Shown here: piece by piece, positions 1,367 to 54,098 of the stretch
Layout of the letters: each line of letters starts with the position of its first letter
How positions within the stretch are numbered: the first letter of the stretch is position 1
Assembly: GCA_027577595.1 (NCBI GenBank)
Contig: JANBRJ010000106.1
Coordinates: 1 to 54,098 of the forward strand
Reading direction: 5' to 3'
Origin: Coemansia sp. RSA 487
Taxonomy: Eukaryota; Kickxellomycota; Kickxellomycetes; Kickxellales; Kickxellaceae
DNA: 54,098 nt
Translations under genes and position numbers: made by a program
The notes under the pieces: model-generated
Told to the model about the DNA's origin: nothing
What the model saw: only the letters and a program-made list of their open reading frames with translations
Databases searched by the model: none

Positions 1367-3513
1367 ACCCAAGAAAATTAAAGCAAAACTGAAAGAAGAA
1401 TATTCTGTAAATGCACCTGAAACTAATTCTGATTCAGATTCTACTAAATCGAAAGGTACTCGATTAGTTTCTGCTAAAGCAGAAATAAATAAAATAGGAA
1501 ATAAAGGTAATAAAGGTAATAAAAAAATAGTATATTTTTGAAATAAGATAATTTCATTAATATTGAATGAACTAACAGTACAAACGATAGTTAAGATAGT
1601 TAAACCAATAACTAATTCATAAGATATAAGTTGAGCTGTAGTTCTTAATGAACCCATTAAAGAATATTTGGAATTACTTGACCAACCAGCTAATATAATA
1701 CCAACTACACTAATTGATGACATGGCTAATAAATAAATAACACCTAATTCCATATCACTTATACTATTACCTCTACCAAAAGGAATAGTTGCCCATCCTA
1801 ATAAATTAACTATAAAAATAGTTAAAGGTGCAGACAAGAAGAACATCTTGTCGGATTGTGAAGGTAAAATAGTTTCTTTTAATAATAATTTTACACCATC
1901 ACTTAATGGTTGTAGAAGACCGAATAACAATTATCTTTTTTTTAGCCAAAGATATCCTACAGGATATCTTCTAGGCAGAGTTAAAAGACTTTTCCCAAAT
2001 ATATATATATTTCATAGATAAGAAAAAAATCTATTAATTTATTTTTCTTATTATGTAACTTTTCAGATAGGGTTTGACTATATCTTAAGCTTACGCTAAC
2101 CACCGTTTAGTCGATGAACTGCACACCTCTCAAAGAGGGGTATTTGGCTGCAGATAACCTATTTCCTTTCGTACATTTATTTCGATTTTACCATACCACG
2201 AGTCATTACCTGTGCCACGAAATATGTTACCATTCTCGTTTGGTTGAAATAACTTTAAGGTGTTCCCGCAATTTGATGGTTTATAGCAGAAGGTTCACTT
2301 CTACTTCTAGGCCAAAGAAGATTACTCAATTCTTCTCTTCAGTATTTTACCTAAATTAAAAATTTTATCTAATAAATCCATTTCTTAAAAAATCTTTAGT
2401 AATACTTAAAATTGGTAACTGATTAAATTAATTACCAATTTAATTTTTATTCTGAAAATTTTATTTTCTTTAAACCTTCTGATGTAAAATGAATTTTTAG
2501 GTTCAATAAAAGTTATAATTTTTTTTTTAATGCTAAATTATTAAAAAGTAGAGTGTTTATTAAATAAATTATTTTTTTTAATTTATTAAAGATGTAGATA
2601 AAATCCATTTATCTCTAAATAATTTATTTTTATCTGTATTTCTAGAAATAGTACTTACATTACAATTAAAAAATTTAGCCGCCTCTGTATAACTATTAAA
2701 TTCTCTAAATACAGTTGTTTTATTATTTTTATCAAATATAAATACTTTTTTTCTTAATTTTATCACAGTACTTTCAGAAATAGATTTACCTTTAAGAGCA
2801 AGACTTATTTTAATTTTAGTTTCAGTAGAAAGAGTTCTACCAGATAAAGTTTTACTTATAGAAGCTTTAGTTTTAGTTGTATGAGTTTTACCATAAAAAT
2901 GATTATTTTCTCCACTCATTTTTATAATTGTATCTACTGAATGCTTAGAACCTAATCGAGAATTTGCGTTAAGATTAAAATTATACTCAGGATTTAAATT
3001 ATCTATATAATATTGTTCTCGTTTAATAATTAATTTTCGTGCTTCTTTTTTTGATAATTTAGAAACATTTATATACTCAAGAATAGATAAACTAAATACG
3101 GAATAACCGTGATAAAGTAAAGCTTTATAAATATACATTGAATTATGATTTTTTAAATAATTTAAATTTAAATAATTTGATAATCTAATAGATATATCAA
3201 ATGCTGAACCTACATATTTTTTACCGGAATCTAAATGAATCCATAAATAAACACCTGCTTTTTTTTTATTATCAGATAAAATTTTTAACTTATTAATATC
3301 TACATTATAATATTTTATTATAAAAGGATATTTATTATTATTATTTTTTGAAGATGTATGGTAAAATCTTATAATATTTAGTTGACCTATATGATTAGGT
3401 CCGACTCTTCTTTGCATCGAACCCATAACTTTTCTTTCTGCTAAAGTTAAATAAGCAATTGCCAATAATACAGGTAATATAATAGAAAAAATTTCAATTA
3501 TTGATAATAACAT
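1367..3513 (-). CDS. nad1: NADH dehydrogenase subunit 1, exons 1 and 2
   Basis: NAD1 is a membrane subunit of respiratory complex I near the quinone site. Exon 1 is 3385-3513 (43 codons, start MLLSIIEIF, through the conserved AERKVMGSMQRRVGPN motif). Exon 2 is 1367-1927 (187 codons, LFGLLQPLSDG to LIFLG, including AETNRVPFDLVESESELVSG). Exon 3 is 53623-53973 across the circle joint. Joined, they give 346 aa, normal for the family. Both joins obey the group I pattern: the exon ends in T and the intron ends in G. Each upstream exon runs in frame into an intron ORF, GIY-YIG after exon 1 and LAGLIDADG after exon 2. It is the last gene of the minus-strand series cob-nad4-nad6-nad1. Confidence 0.95.
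1928..3384 (-). mobile_element. Group I intron 1 of nad1
   Basis: Sits after codon 43 of nad1. The 5' part is a GIY-YIG ORF fused to exon 1 (2578-3384). The conserved ribozyme core follows at about 2045-2360, including the segment CACAGGTAATGACTCGTGG and the P7-like AAGATATAGTC. This core is nearly the same as that of cox2 intron 2 (47150-47420, plus strand), although the ORFs differ in family detail and position. The intron's last base is G and the upstream exon ends in T. The plus-strand reading frame at 2114-2359 is only a shadow of the core. Confidence 0.88.
2578..3384 (-). CDS. GIY-YIG homing endonuclease in nad1 intron 1
   Basis: In-frame continuation of nad1 exon 1, about 268 codons. 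The GIY-YIG module is clear: AGVYLWIHLDSGKKYVG gives the GVY...YVG pair, an Arg follows in SIRLSNY, and EQYYIDNLNPEYN supplies the catalytic-type Glu and the conserved loop. C-terminal repeats of the NUMOD type (KHSVDTIIKMSGENNHFYG and later copies) and a last helix-turn-helix-like region with EAAKFFNCNVSTISR are expected to bind DNA. The frame is intact. It probably matures by cleavage from the exon-fused precursor. It is not closely similar to the GIY-YIG protein in cox2 intron 2, whose ribozyme it shares. Confidence 0.88.
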   Translation of the reverse strand, partial: QLNIIRFYHTSSKNNNNKYPFIIKYYNVDINKLKILSDNKKKAGVYLWIHLDSGKKYVGSAFDISIRLSNYLNLNYLKNHNSMYIYKALLYHGYSVFSLSILEYINVSKLSKKEARKLIIKREQYYIDNLNPEYNFNLNANSRLGSKHSVDTIIKMSGENNHFYGKTHTTKTKASISKTLSGRTLSTETKIKISLALKGKSISESTVIKLRKKVFIFDKNNKTTVFREFNSYTEAAKFFNCNVSTISRNTDKNKLFRDKWILSTSLIN

Positions 3514-4830: not shown

Positions 4831-7721
4831 TTAATATATTCTCTGAACTTCGTTCAGGGTTTCATTATCAAAACCAGCTTCTATTAATGTATTTTGATAA
4901 TAATTAATTATATTATTTACTATTTTATCCTTATTTGTTAATAATATATTATCTTTTAAAAATGAGAATATAGAATCATTAATACGAATTGTTTCTATAC
5001 TTTGTGATAAATTAAGAATTTCATTACTGTCGTCTGCGACGAATAATCTATCATGAGTTTTAAAACGAGATTGATTATTATATAAAGATAATTTTTTTTT
5101 TTTTATAAAATAACTTTTAATAAATAATGGTAATATCATATAATTAGAATTAATATCAGAAGAAAAAACAGTTGAAATTTTTAATAATATAACAGAAATA
5201 TCATATTCAAATATATCAGTAATTAAAAAAGGTATAATAGCAGTTATAAAAATAATAATAAATAAAGGTAATGTAATAGAAAATTCTCTTATAGTTAAAT
5301 CATTAGATTTAAATTTTAAATATAAAGAATAAGAACCAAATAATATTCTACCTAAAAACCAGATAGAAAAAGCAGCAACTAAAATAATACTTAAAGAAGA
5401 AAAAATACCTATAGTAGGATCAATAAAAAAAATACCTATAAAAGATAAAAATTCACCTATAAAATTATTAGTTAAAGGTGTAGCCATATTACTTAAGATA
5501 AAATAAAATAATATAAAAGAAAAAATAGGTGTAAAAATATTTAATCCTTTATAATATAATAAAGTTCTAGAATGATATCTATCATATAAAACAGCTACAC
5601 AAATAAATAAACTAGGTGAAGTAAAACCATGTGCTATTGATAAAAATATAGAACCAGATAAACCTTGATATAAAAATGAAAATAAACTCATTATTGCTAT
5701 AGCCATATGCTACTCTAACTAGAGGACTGGACCATATCTTTATTTACTTATTCTGATTTAAATCCTTTATCCCATGAACTAATTAATTGTTGCCATGCTT
5801 TATTTAAAAAAAAGTTTTTATCTCCCGAAAGAGCTTTTAGCTCCTTTAGTTCATAAAATTTAGGTATTAAATTGACCCTAATAAGTTTGGCGGATCTAGA
5901 AGGATAAATATGAAAATAGTTTTTATATAAAGATAATACTTCTTCTTTTTTATAAACAACCCATCTAAATGTTTTTCTTTTTTTATCATGAAAATAAACT
6001 ATACCTCCATATAAATTAATTAAAGGGTCTAAAAGATATTTATCTTTTTGAGTAAATGAAAAAATAATTTTATAATTTATTTTATCTATATATATACTAT
6101 CATCACTATCAAAAAATCCTGATAACCAACCATTATTATATGTTAATGGTTGCGGTTGTATTAAATCAATATTATATTTAGAACATATTTTATTTAATTG
6201 ATCTAATCTTTTTGGATTTCTAATTAATCCATTTATTACATAAATTAAATTTAATATACCTTCTTTATGATGTAATCTATATCTTACAGCTTTAGCACCT
6301 GATTTTAATTTGATTGAACCACCAAATCGTTGTTTAATTAAGTATAAACAATGTTCATCTCTTAAATCCATAGTTATTTCTAAACCTACAGATCCAGTTT
6401 TAGTTTTATATAAATAACCATCACCATCAATAAGGCCAGCTAACCATTCATTAAATTTTTTTTCAGTATTATTTTTATTTTTAGTAGAAGTAGTATACAT
6501 AGAAGTTAAATTAAAAAACGGATTAATATATAATAATCCATGAATATTTTTTTTAAAGATATTGGTAAATAACAAACATATGGCCTCTGAGATTTTCATT
6601 CGCGTGCTAAGCGCTTTGATTATCTGCGGATTATTTAAATATATTACAAAAATTCTAACTAAAATGGAATCTAAAAATAAAATAAGATTACTAATAATTT
6701 TAGTATTTTGTAATATTGAAATTTTTTTTAAAATAAATTTCTTAAATTTCCCGCATATAGTTTGTTGCGATAAATATATTATATTTATCGGGCCAATTCG
6801 ACCAATGGAACTATAAGCAATAATTTTTTTTAAATCAATTTGTCTTAAAGTTGTAAAAGATGAATATAATATACCTAATAATGATAATAATAAAGTTAAA
6901 GGTAAAAAATGATAAGAACCTTCAGGATATAAACTTAAAGAAAATCTTATAAATCCATAAGTTGCTAATTTTAACATAATACCAGCTAAAATAATAGAAC
7001 CACTTAATGGCGCTTCAGTGTGAGCTAAAGGTAACCATTGATGAAATGGTAATAAAGGTGTTTTTATAGCAAAAGAAATAAAGAATCCTAACCATAAAAT
7101 AAATTGTTTCTTAATTGATAAAAAAGAAGTAGAAATAAAAATATAATCATAAGTACCTGAAAAAGAATATAATGTTAATATAGCTAATAACATAAATAAT
7201 GAACCTCCTAATGTCATTAAAAAAAATTGATAAGTAGCATATATTCTTGTTAATTCTTCTTTTTCTTTTCCTTTTTTATTACCTTGTTTATTACTACCAA
7301 ATATACCTATTAATAAAAACATAGGTATTAATGATGTTTCAAAAAATATATAAAACATTAATATATCTAATATTATAAATACTCCTATTAATATACTTTC
7401 TAAAAGTAATAATGATATTATATAATATTTTGTATTTCCTGTAATATTCCAACCACCTATTATAGATAATACCATTATAAATGTTGTTAATAATATAAAT
7501 AATAATGATATACCATCTATACCTGTCATTATAGTATTAGTTATTCTTATTGTAAATTGTGGAAAATTTTGACTATAATTAAATTTATTCCACATTATTA
7601 TTGATATTACTAAATTTATCATACCTACACTTAATCCTATCATTTTTATTTTTTTTTTATCTGTATAATTTAAACATCCTAATACACCTATAATTGGAAA
7701 CATAATTAATAAATTTATCAT
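4831..7721 (-). CDS. nad4: NADH dehydrogenase subunit 4 (2 exons)
   Basis: Proton-pumping membrane subunit of complex I. Exon 1 is 6801-7721 (307 codons, through KKIIAYSSIG) and exon 2 is 4831-5709 (HMAIAIMSLF onward). The join gives SSIGHM, the usual NAD4 sequence, with T before and G at the end of the intron. Conserved landmarks are the ETSLIPMFLLIG segment, the region around HQWLPLAHTEAPLSGS and LDLKKIIAYSSI-like residues. The conserved protein ends near FEYDISVILLKIS. About 100 polar residues then follow, so the product is 599 aa against roughly 490 in relatives. This extension holds a small palindrome at 5029-5040 and ends at another at 4843-4857. Confidence 0.93.
5748..6800 (-). CDS. 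LAGLIDADG HEG in nad4 intron 1
   Basis: The intron is 5710-6800 and the ORF continues exon 1 in frame (about 350 codons). Motif 1 is [13 protein letters not shown] and motif 2 is WLSGFFDSDDSIY, in which the usual Gly after the acid is Asp. Motif 2 keeps an acidic residue, so activity is possible. The body ([29 protein letters not shown]) is very close to the HEGs of cox1 introns 5 and 6, and the intron 5' ends also match, so the three are copies of one mobile intron. The N-terminal part reads through ribozyme-core sequence (MKISEAICLLF). Confidence 0.88.
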   Translation of the reverse strand, partial: RIGPINIIYLSQQTICGKFKKFILKKISILQNTKIISNLILFLDSILVRIFVIYLNNPQIIKALSTRMKISEAICLLFTNIFKKNIHGLLYINPFFNLTSMYTTSTKNKNNTEKKFNEWLAGLIDGDGYLYKTKTGSVGLEITMDLRDEHCLYLIKQRFGGSIKLKSGAKAVRYRLHHKEGILNLIYVINGLIRNPKRLDQLNKICSKYNIDLIQPQPLTYNNGWLSGFFDSDDSIYIDKINYKIIFSFTQKDKYLLDPLINLYGGIVYFHDKKRKTFRWVVYKKEEVLSLYKNYFHIYPSRSAKLIRVNLIPKFYELKELKALSGDKNFFLNKAWQQLISSWDKGFKSE

Positions 7722-22656: not shown

Positions 22657-37171
<14,515 letters not shown>

Positions 37172-45360: not shown

Positions 45361-48300
45361 ATGAAATTATTAAATAATTTTATTTTATGGAATGATACTG
45401 CTGAGCCTTGGCAATTATCATATCAAGATAGTGCCACTACATCAATGGAAGGTATTGATACATTAAATGGTGAAATTTACTATTATGAAGTTATAATTTT
45501 TATATTAATAATATGGGTTTTCATATCTATTTTTTCTAAATTTGTAGGTCAATCAATATCTTATAAATATAGTAATCATAATCCAAAATTAGAAATAATA
45601 TGGACTTGTACACCAGCTATATTGTTAATTTGTATTGCTTTCCCAAGTTTTAGATTAATTTATTTAATAGATGAAATTGAAGAAACTAATGTAACAATAA
45701 AAGTAATAGGTTTCTTATTAGGTGGCCTAACATTATATATTTTAAATAAAATAAAAGATACCTATTTTAATAATCAAGTAGTTCCTTGTTTATTAAATAT
45801 AGATGAAAAAAATAATATTTCAAATAATAATTTAATTAAATCTTTTTTTATTTTTTTTAATATTCCTAATATAAGAGCTAATAAAAGAATTGGACCTCAT
45901 AATAAACAAGTAATTAGTATAATTATAGGTTCATTATTAGGTAATGCTTATGCTAATAGAAAATCTAAAGAAGGTATAAGATTAATATTTAAACAAAGTA
46001 TTATACATAAAGATTATTTATTTTGGTTATATGAATTTTTTTACAACAATGGTTATTGTACTAATTTATTACCCCGAGCAAGTATATGCTCGAGAAAACT
46101 AAAAAAAAATAATGAAATAAAAGAATATTTTGAATACGAATTTAATACTTTTTCTTTTAGAAGTTTTAATTGGGTACATAAAATGTTCTATAAAAATGGA
46201 AAAAAAAGAATAAAAATAAATTTATTAGAAAAATATTTAGATCCATTAGCTTTAGCTATTTGGATTATGGATGATGGATGTTTTACTAAATATGGAGTAA
46301 GAATAGCAACAAATAGTTTTACTTTAGAAGAAGTTGAATTTTTAAGAGATTTATTAAAAAAAAAATTTAATTTAAATTGTATAGTTCAAAAAATTCAAAC
46401 TAAAAGTCAATGGTCTTTGTATATTAAAGCTGAATCTATGAAAAATTTAAGAGATTTAATATTACCATATATTCATCCAAGTATGTTATATAAAATAAAT
46501 TTAAAAAATAAAAATTAAATAAAAAAAAAATTTGAAATATAAAGTTCTTTTAACACAAATATAAATATATAATAGTCGTGAGTATAAAATAAAATTATTT
46601 TATATTCTAAGATTTCGACAGAAATCTTTAAAAATTTTATAAATAATTTTTATTTATGAATTTTTAGGCGATACAAGTGAAAACGGTTAAAATATAATAA
46701 AATTTCAATACCGTATAATTATACAAGACCGTCAGTAAATAATTTTATTTTTTTATTTATTGCTACAGACTTGGTCACTTGTGGGTCCGTGTATGTATTA
46801 ATACATCTGAAGGGCTTTATGTATAGTCGATTATTGTCAAAATATATTAATATATTGACATTGCACCAATGGTATTGGAGTTACGAATATCCTGATTATA
46901 ATAGTGATATTTCATTTGATTCATTTATGCAACCTACAGAAGATTTAGAAAAAGGACAATTTAGATTATTAGAATTAGATAATAATCCTGTTTTACCTGT
47001 AGGTATACCTATAAAAATTATAACTTCTTCAAGTGATGTATTACATAGTTTCGCTATTCCATCTGCCGGTTTTAAAATTGATGCTGTACCTGGTAGATTA
47101 AATACAATAACTTGTAATTTTGATAGAAAAGGTACTTTTTATGGTCAGAAATGAATATTGGCCATAACCATAGTAAACCTATGGTTATAAATCATCAAAT
47201 TGACGGGAACCCCCTAAAGAAATCTTAACCAAGTAAGTATGGTAACATAACTTATGGCACAGGTAATGACTCGTGGTATGGTAAAATCAAGATTTATAAT
47301 TCAATGGGAAATCCGCAGCCAAGTACCCCTCTTTGAGAGGTATGCAGTTCATCGACTAAACGGTGGTTGGTATTATTAATAATGCTTAAGATATAGTCAA
47401 ACCCTACCCGAAAGAGTACAGGAGATTATGAAAAAATTTTATAAAATTTTCATAATCTCTGTTAAAGAAAAATTTAAATATATTTAAATTTTTGGGGATT
47501 AAAATTCTACAATAGTTTGCTAAACTTATTATTTTAATATAAAAATAAATCTTAAAAATAATATTATAATAAAAAATAAAACATATATAAGTTTTGATTT
47601 TTCACAATTTTTACGCTATTGTAATATTTTTATTGCATAATATATTTAATAAAAGTATTTTAAAAAATCATTTTATAATAAATAAATATCCATTATATAG
47701 ATTAAATTTTATAGCTGTAATACCTTTAATTAGATCTTTTAGTACTAATATATTAAAATATTCAGTAAATAATCCAGAGTCTTTAGCTATAAAACATATA
47801 AATAGTGGTAAGTCTATCACTCATTCAATTATTAATAAAATATTATTAAATCAAAATTTATCTATTACTAATAATAAATTAGAAGATTTATTAAAAGTTA
47901 AAGGCATAGAAATTAATTTACCTGTGGTAACGCTAGAAGATAATAAACTTTTAGCTGAATTAACAGGTAAATCAAAATATAAAGGATTCTTTGGTGTATA
48001 TATATTTATACATAAAAAAACAAATCAAAAGTATGTCGGTTCATCTAATTTATTAAGACGTAGAATGAATTATTATTTTAAAGGTAATTTTCCTTTAGCT
48101 GGTAAATTTTTACCTATTCTTCATAAAGAAGGATTAGGAGCTTTTAAATTAAAAATATTTAAATTAGATAATAATAAATTTAATAGTCAAGATGCTTTAA
48201 TATTAGAACAATATTTTTTATTAAATAAAAATTTTGATTTAAATACTTTAAGAGTTGTAAATGCAGGATCTTCTAAAGGTAAAGGTGTTTATATATATGA

Positions 48301-49197
48301 TTTAACTTGTAGTATTTTTTATTATCATGCTAAATCAAAAATAGAATTAAAAAGAATTTTAAAAATACATCCTGAAACTTGTAAAAAATATATAGATTCT
48401 AAAGTCCCTTATTTGAATAACTTTTTGTTATTTAGTTATCCTATATCTACAGCTGTAATTGGCAGTATACCAATTATGGAATTAATAAATATAATGCAAA
48501 AAGAAAGACAAGCTATGTATATATTAGGAACTCGTAGGAATATTTCTGTCATATTAGAAATTAAAGAAGGAAATACTTTTGTAAATTCTTCTATTATAGG
48601 TCATACTTTAAATTTTTATTCTTTAACATCTTGTATAGAATATTTAAGAAAATTAGGTTTAATTATAAAGAGAGATACTCTCACTAAATATATAAAAAAT
48701 GAGAAAATATTTTCTCATTTTTTATGTAAGTACTCAGATAAAATTTTACCAAATAATTTTGAAGAGGTAGGATTAATAATTGAAGAATATAAAAAATTAA
48801 AAGTAGATTCAGATTCTTTAAATATTAATAAAAAAAATAAACCTATATTAGTAAAAGGAAAAAATTTAGAAAAAAAATTTGAAAGTATTACGAATTCAAT
48901 TAAATATTTTGAGACTTTAGGTATTAAGTTAGATCGAAAAACTTTATATATTCATTTAAAAAATGGTAAAGAATATAAAGGTTATTATTTTTTTTATGAA
49001 TAATTAGTAATTAAACTTTTTTTTTGTAAGGTAGTAATTATAAAATATGTATTTATAATTTTTTATATTAAAATAATTGTAGATTTAAATTGCAATGTTC
49101 AGAATTATGTGGTGTATTTCATTTTGGTATGCCAATTCTTTTTGAAATAGTTTCAATTAATGATTATTTTACTTGGTTAAATTCTTTTGATGATTAA
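45361..49197 (+). CDS. cox2: Cytochrome c oxidase subunit 2 (3 exons)
   Basis: Carries the CuA centre that accepts electrons from cytochrome c. Exons: 45361-45711 (117 codons), 46864-47145 (94 codons) and 49093-49197 (34 codons plus TAA); total 245 aa. Joins restore [15 protein letters not shown] and [17 protein letters not shown]. CuA ligands are visible: His in DVLHSFAIP, Cys, Glu and Cys in CSELCG, and the following His and Met. Both introns end in G with T before. Two N-terminal helices; the start has an unusual NGEIYYYEV stretch. Exon 3 would be missed without splicing because the frame after exon 2 stops at once. Confidence 0.96.
45712..46863 (+). CDS. cox2 intron 1: LAGLIDADG_2 protein lacking motif-1 acid (ORF 45712-46518)
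   Basis: In frame with exon 1, about 268 codons, intact. Motif 1 reads [13 protein letters not shown]: the catalytic acid is Asn and the following Gly is Ala, whereas the cox3-intron relative has IGSLLGDG. Motif 2 is normal ([11 protein letters not shown]), and the end is [11 protein letters not shown]. It may nick, or only assist splicing. A palindrome CGAGCA/TGCTCG (about 46076-46093) is in frame within the ORF. The core at 46570-46860 has GGCGATACAAGTGAAAACGG and ACAGACTTGGTCACTTGTGG. Confidence 0.87.
47146..49092 (+). mobile_element. Group I intron 2 of cox2
   Basis: 1,947 nt. The ribozyme core (47150-47420) comes first and the ORF lies after it. The core contains AAATTGACGGGAACC, CACAGGTAATGACTCGTGG, TGCAGTTCATCGACTAAACG and AAGATATAGTC. 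These also occur, in the same order, in nad1 intron 1 (2045-2360, minus strand), where the ORF lies before the core. Intron ends in G before CAATGTTCAG. Confidence 0.88.
47594..49003 (+). CDS. GIY-YIG homing endonuclease in cox2 intron 2
   Basis: 469 codons if TTG at 47594 is used; no ATG is available before the conserved part, so an alternative start or a shorter product is likely. [26 protein letters not shown] at about residues 133-152, [10 protein letters not shown] with Arg, and [18 protein letters not shown] with Glu. The long C-terminal half holds several NUMOD1-like repeats ([55 protein letters not shown]). Intact frame. Unusually long for the family. Confidence 0.85.
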   Translation: MIFHNFYAIVIFLLHNIFNKSILKNHFIINKYPLYRLNFIAVIPLIRSFSTNILKYSVNNPESLAIKHINSGKSITHSIINKILLNQNLSITNNKLEDLLKVKGIEINLPVVTLEDNKLLAELTGKSKYKGFFGVYIFIHKKTNQKYVGSSNLLRRRMNYYFKGNFPLAGKFLPILHKEGLGAFKLKIFKLDNNKFNSQDALILEQYFLLNKNFDLNTLRVVNAGSSKGKGVYIYDLTCSIFYYHAKSKIELKRILKIHPETCKKYIDSKVPYLNNFLLFSYPISTAVIGSIPIMELINIMQKERQAMYILGTRRNISVILEIKEGNTFVNSSIIGHTLNFYSLTSCIEYLRKLGLIIKRDTLTKYIKNEKIFSHFLCKYSDKILPNNFEEVGLIIEEYKKLKVDSDSLNINKKNKPILVKGKNLEKKFESITNSIKYFETLGIKLDRKTLYIHLKNGKEYKGYYFFYE

Positions 49198-53973: not shown

Positions 53974-54098
53974 CAAATAGTCCAATACGAAAGTATTGGG
54001 TTAGACTATACTTTCAACTAATAATTATTTATGGTATATAACCATAATAATTTTACTCTAATTAGTGTTAGCGTGTTGCAGAAATTAATTTTTATTTT

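Follow-up and report, generated by a model that had tools for sequence, protein, structure and literature searches.

A group I ribozyme class occupying nad1 and cox2 in the mitogenome of Coemansia sp. RSA 487, and the histories of its GIY-YIG genes

The window analyzed here, a stretch of 54,098 nucleotides from Coemansia sp. RSA 487, is an AT-rich fungal mitochondrial genome (21% G+C) carrying nad, cox, cob, atp6, and rps3/VAR1 genes together with both rRNAs. Its ends (1-77 and 54022-54098) are identical and form a 77-bp overlap, and the window probably represents a circular mitogenome of ~54,021 bp. Two introns located in genes on opposite strands, nad1 intron 1 and cox2 intron 2, are the subject of this study.

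Exon 1 of nad1 (3385..3513, minus strand), recognized by its translation and by the Pfam NADHdh family, comprises 43 codons ending in GPNHIG/GGT. Intron 1 (1928..3384, minus strand; 1457 nt), delimited by the exon frame and splice-site rules, begins with CAACTAA and ends with ATTG, position 1928 being the omega-G, and is followed by exon 2, which resumes with LFGLLQ. The insertion site was assigned to nad1P144, considering that the homologous junction in another mitogenome (G003, contig L048) lies after codon 48, which corresponds to nt 144, and that the window nad1 starts five codons later. The frame of exon 1 runs into the intron as an open frame of 315 codons containing GIY-YIG, NUMOD3, and NUMOD1 domains, and the ribozyme core comes thereafter (P2-P9 with a P5 extension; 2054..2306, minus strand). 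The endonuclease gene (HEG; 2578..3384, minus strand), in frame with exon 1, lies in the P1 loop, between the 5′ splice site and the internal guide sequence, and its product matched the catalytic domain of I-TevI with an E-value of 0.003. The guide sequence GCCTA (2308..2312, minus strand), identified by complementarity, is predicted to form a 5-bp P1 with the exon sequence UAGGU; two alternative 6-bp pairings of the exon, both with G.U, lie far upstream in the ORF. Within the core, the P6a hairpin ACCCCTCTTTGAGAGGT (2125..2141, minus strand) is common only to the nad1 and cox2 introns of the window.

The cox2 coding stretch located 5′ of the second intron (46864..47145, plus strand; Pfam COX2) ends in FYG, TTTTTATGGT, and the intron itself (47146..49092, plus strand; 1947 nt) starts with CAGAAATG and ends with TTG, with the omega-G at 49092. 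Its assignment to cox2P651 rests on spacing, since the LNHG and FYG junctions are 423 nt apart, which equals the distance from P228 to P651. The guide sequence GCCATAA (47161..47167, plus strand) is predicted to form a 7-bp P1 with the exon sequence UUAUGGU, and the core (47165..47420, plus strand) includes a P6a hairpin (47325..47341, plus strand) identical in sequence to that of nad1. A long free-standing GIY-YIG gene (47591..49003, plus strand; 470 codons from stop to stop) lies 3′ of the core, its frame being cut off from exon 1 by stops. This frame has no ATG 5′ of the GIY-YIG domain (47591-48070), and the first methionine of its counterpart in another mitogenome (G006) aligns with a leucine codon of the window gene, which may reflect either a non-ATG start or early decay. 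The Pfam GIY-YIG domain was detected at similar scores in the nad1 and cox2 genes (33.0 and 32.8 bits; cut-off 22.6), and no PDB GIY-YIG chain matched the cox2 endonuclease at E <= 1.

The positions and arrangement described in the original prediction, with a nad1 ORF preceding the core and fused to exon 1 and a free cox2 GIY-YIG gene following the core, were therefore confirmed. The insertion sites had also been described as dissimilar, which holds for their 3′ side, whereas the 5′ exons both end in GGT and the guide sequences, at an equivalent place, both begin with GCC. Moreover, the P1 helix of either intron has U.G at the 5′ splice site, and both introns terminate in G. A conserved GGT 5′ of the 5′ splice site, with considerable exceptions among GIY-YIG introns, is reported in PMC7487136.

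The comparison by blastn aligned 2061-2299 (minus strand) with 47172-47413 (plus strand) at 78.2% identity over 248 columns (205 bits), the identity of the two cores being 78-81% overall. This was the strongest among the listed matches of window intron stretches outside the HEGs, in which the other long matches extended over about 190-320 columns with 69-74% identity and 88-113 bits, and the shorter pieces over 48-85 columns with up to 85%. Within the 17.8 Mb assembly, an exact 25-mer of the core is confined to the nad1 and cox2 introns, and a 361-nt query likewise matched these two introns only. Both cores also exceeded the Rfam gathering cut-off of 50 bits for RF00028 (group I intron), with 79.2 bits for nad1 and 83.9 bits for cox2 (E 4.5e-22); the same model missed both introns in a scan of the whole window and the cox2 intron also in a 3.9 kb stretch, the filters being laxer on shorter stretches.

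Core patterns combined with exon peptides led to five further members of the class, all of them on fungal mitochondrial contigs deposited in a viral collection. Two occupy nad1P144 (G003 on L048, and G005 on L058), one occupies cox2P651 (G006 on L060), and two reside at different sites of cob (cobA in G001 on L003, and cobB in G002 on L004). At the nad1P144 site of G004 the gene is uninterrupted and no match to the nad1 core was found. IMG/VR files the fungal mitochondrial contigs L003, L004, L048, L056, L058, and L060 (15-44 kb) as viral, and G002 and G004, which have the same sample number, may be one fungus. In IMG/VR, core words also matched L005 by chance, and beyond 23 nt nothing convincing of either intron was found there. 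The core pattern search of the genome-contig collection gave no match, and the short-peptide search with the cox2 endonuclease recovered no relative, although G006 encodes one at 63% identity.

A model (R1) built from six of the seven members, leaving out cobB_G002 because its inserts exceeded the column limit, returned 58 matches at E <= 0.5 in a search of 15 sources (256,399 bases). The seven members scored 181-289 bits, six of them being training rows and the held-out cobB_G002 scoring 181.4 bits, while the next best match reached 113.8 bits and the other window introns at most 50.7 bits. The second cox2 intron of L048, considered as a candidate at first given its 70.8% identity over 137 columns, was rejected, since it scored 96.9 bits with R1 against 181-289 bits for the members and fell outside them in the tree. 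By the same rule used for the window introns, P1 comprises 6 bp in G003, 5 bp in G005, and 5 bp in cobA_G001; in cox2_G006 the pairing at the place of the guide is limited to 3 bp (GGU/GCC).

The consensus fold of six cores contains 73 pairs in 12 helices, with 97.4% of the cells paired, compared to 35-40% in slid controls. Changes on both sides were observed for 25 pairs, against a mean of 13.0 in shuffled alignments, and none of the 500 shuffles reached as high a number; P7 is invariant across the folded cores and hence provides no covariation evidence. Helices 5-7 of the fold correspond to a branched extension of P5. Such a branched extension (P5abc) is a criterion for subgroup IC. The nad1 and cox2 cores of the window belong to one ribozyme class, P5-extended and tentatively IC-like; in the table for Purpureocillium atypicola, the cox2P651 intron is listed as IC1 and the nad1P144 intron as 'derived' (PMC11509744).

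It could be argued that this likeness is merely what any two group I introns have in common, as the P3-P7 motifs are common to all group I cores and other intron pairs of the window reach 69-74% identity over part of their length. This seems extremely improbable, considering that a hold-out covariance model (R2), built from the four non-window cores, assigned 265.9 bits to each window core (2053-2305 in nad1 and 47166-47421 in cox2) against 52.9 bits for the next window intron, and that the three outgroup cores tabulated have 48-62% identity to the class. The claim of the original prediction that both introns contain the same ribozyme core is thus well founded, and its further proposal, that one ribozyme spread between the two genes here, was not sustained. 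Copying of a core between nad1 and cox2 in either direction, for instance by reverse splicing, with a second endonuclease taken up afterwards, would fit the strongest core match within the window among the matches listed, the equivalent place of the guides, the GGT at the end of both exons, and the identical P6a. The core trees, inferred from 13 of 16 aligned matches with outgroups (the outgroup part carrying a long-branch warning) and from 7 of 16 without an outgroup, make such a copy very doubtful, as the clade uniting the two window cores was rejected (AU p 0.0010 with 13 rows, 0.00077 with 7 rows, and 1.5e-5 without P6a). Among the rows compared, the nearest relatives of both the cox2 core and its HEG are found at the cox2P651 site of G006, the two cox2 cores being paired with support of 96/99 (13 rows) and 100/99 (7 rows). 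These two cores have in common a 6-nt deletion and 15 letters absent from the other five members, against three letters private to the window pair, all in P6a, and they differ from the three nad1 rows in 18 letter columns and 9 gap columns. The expectation that the window cores would be more alike than introns of the same class also failed: on the shared alignment, the cox2 core has 88% identity to cox2_G006, and the nad1 core 83% to cobA_G001, 81% to each of nad1_G003, nad1_G005, and the window cox2 core, 75% to cox2_G006, and 74% to cobB_G002. Since both the core and the HEG of cox2 are affiliated with those of the other cox2P651 intron and the clade of window cores is rejected, we find no sign of a direct copy between nad1 and cox2, and the strongly favored reading is that one ribozyme class is represented here by two separate lineages, each at its own site. 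Within the sample of seven members, the nad1P144 trio is the grouping of the best tree with support of 65/83 (13 rows) and five private letters, the 7-row tree did not resolve it, and a clade of the window nad1 core with cobA_G001 was not rejected (p 0.153); because the trio is weak as a core clade, a history tied to the site is less certain for the nad1 core than for the cox2 core.

A further reading accepts two site lineages and proposes a later exchange of P6a and its flanks between their cores within one mitogenome, through gene conversion or template switching. The 17-nt hairpin is identical in the window pair and different in all five other members, and thus connects the two window introns in conflict with the core tree. 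Allowing up to 3 mismatches, the window contains no further copy (chance expectation 0.01), and the 13-nt center of the hairpin occurs in 2 of 69 loci, both being the window's own copies (39 loci served only as background for this count and in a separate blast comparison). The longest identical run of the window pair lies in P6a, and a GENECONV-like permutation run test gave uncorrected values of p 0.0026 with 7 rows (21 pairs) and 0.0012 with 6 rows (15 pairs), which become about 0.05 and 0.02 once all pairs are taken into account. This test is unspecific, as it also marks pairs drawn from different contigs, including the window nad1 core and cobA_G001, for which p was 0.0004 and 0.0010, as well as nad1_G005 and cox2_G006, for which it was 0.0002 (7 rows) and 0.014 (6 rows); it does not prove conversion, because it is significant across contigs too. 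Besides, paired and rate-varying columns clump, and an ancestral P6a may have been kept in both introns. Overall, a later exchange of P6a is conceivable and rather unlikely, and the same tentative standing, if slightly lower, is given to the more specific proposal that P6a was homogenized by ectopic gene conversion between the opposite-strand genes and that the cores are mosaics shaped by module exchange as well as descent. An identical stretch of 44 nt covering P2-P4 was also observed between the window nad1 core (2054-2306, minus strand) and the cobA_G001 core (L003, from 3813), a hint that mosaic cores may not be limited to the two window introns.

For the histories of the endonuclease genes, 51 reading frames yielded 52 domains, of which 46 entered the tree after six shorter than 95 residues had been dropped; the bootstrap was unsettled (correlation 0.934), so the support values are rough, and two rows were long. 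The HEGs of the window align only around the GIY-YIG domain (30% identity, 138 columns, E 1e-5), in agreement with the original description of the two genes as not closely similar, and their placement as sister branches, which had been named as an outcome contradicting that description's conclusions, was rejected (AU p 6.2e-5). The cox2 HEG is sister to the cox2P651 HEG of G006 (100/99), with 63% identity over 491 columns, and by this sister relationship core and gene appear to have stayed together in two mitogenomes. A clade of the three nad1P144 HEGs was rejected (AU p 5e-7); the genes of G003 and G005 fall into one clade together with three further HEGs, including that of G004, which is fused to nad1 at a later site. 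Because the window GIY-YIG gene and those of G003 and G005 represent different subfamilies, the HEG at nad1P144 appears to have been replaced under a constant core at one site. The GIY-YIG gene precedes the core in G003 and G005 and, in G003, is plainly in frame with exon 1. Both cob members carry LAGLIDADG genes, before the core in G001 and after it in G002, where the protein scored 22.2, just under the Pfam cut-off of 23.1. Considering the four sites together, the gene can be found on either side of the core and both endonuclease types are represented. Independent uptake of the endonucleases, as originally proposed, fits these observations in general; it needs to be qualified in that the cox2 HEG stayed with its core in two mitogenomes and the nad1P144 HEG was seemingly exchanged.

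From the class membership, sites, arrangement, and relationships observed, both introns are in all probability mobile group I introns that represent separate lineages at the catalogued fungal sites nad1P144 and cox2P651. By analogy with known members of the family, each intron would self-splice through P1, in which the exon ending in GGU pairs with a guide beginning with GCC, and the GIY-YIG protein would cut intron-free alleles of its own site, with the intron being copied in by repair (homing). The HEGs would occupy places tolerated by the core, either 5′ of it in the P1 loop or 3′ of it beyond P9, and their acquisition or exchange may have been independent of the core. Between the two mitogenomes with a member at cox2P651, core and gene would have been inherited or transferred jointly.

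Introns at both sites are listed for P. atypicola (nad1P144 and cox2P651; PMC11509744) and for Epichloe (nad1_144 and cox2_651; PMC12007492), in which introns are reported to cluster by insertion site (PMC12007492), while the cox2P651 intron is reported for one of five Cordyceps (PMC10327131). The nad1P144 introns of Epichloe and P. atypicola lie at the same site as in the window, GPN.(I/V)G^, that of P. atypicola being listed with a GIY-YIG gene (PMC12007492; PMC11509744). In comparison with the nad1P144 introns of G003 and G005, the window GIY-YIG gene (NUMOD3 and NUMOD1) is of a different subfamily, whereas the cox2P651 intron of G006 has the same site (FYG^QCSE) and the same order of core and gene, with 88% identity in the core and 63% in the GIY-YIG protein. 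By its table entry, the cox2P651 intron of P. atypicola carries a LAGLIDADG gene instead of the GIY-YIG gene found in the window (PMC11509744).

Introns that are alike yet carry different ORFs, ORFs that vary in position, and ORFs that are alike although their introns have diverged have been described (Edgell et al., 2011; PMC3073962), as have optional ORFs moving into an intron, with Podospora nad1-i4 as a cited case (PMC4964425), and several independent acquisitions of GIY-YIG genes (Megarioti and Kouvelis, 2020; PMC7487136). The latter source also stresses the coevolution of introns and HEGs, a pattern followed by the cox2P651 pair but not at nad1P144 (PMC7487136). With respect to the composite introns with exchanged HEGs described in these sources, nothing categorical differs, and the window adds seven cores at four sites (PMC3073962; PMC7487136; PMC4964425). 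The general principle that cores and HEGs mix and match is already published, and the present case is a resolved new example of it, in which one ribozyme class is traced across four sites and is accompanied, on one side or the other, by several kinds of endonuclease gene. Two easily confused histories are told apart, a stable pair of core and gene at cox2P651 and gene replacement at nad1P144. Besides, a resemblance between two introns of the same genome does not attest a jump until same-site introns of other species have been compared.

Additional observations were made on endonuclease genes at other places. Three LAGLIDADG stretches of the window, located in a nad gene and in cox1 (5790-6456, minus strand; 28619-29315 and 29845-30537, plus strand), have 72.6-74% identity over 664-702 columns, an intragenomic likeness greater than that of the nad1 and cox2 HEGs. 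A relative of the long cox2 GIY-YIG gene of the window is present in G003 (L053, 11054-11423 and 11672-12517) in a cox2 intron lying between P228 and P651, which has a core that does not belong to the class. Finally, a cox1 GIY-YIG gene (33311-34407, plus strand) appears to be split over two frames, one with the GIY-YIG domain (33311-33910) and the other with NUMOD3 and NUMOD1 (33838-34407), and probably represents a decayed HEG.
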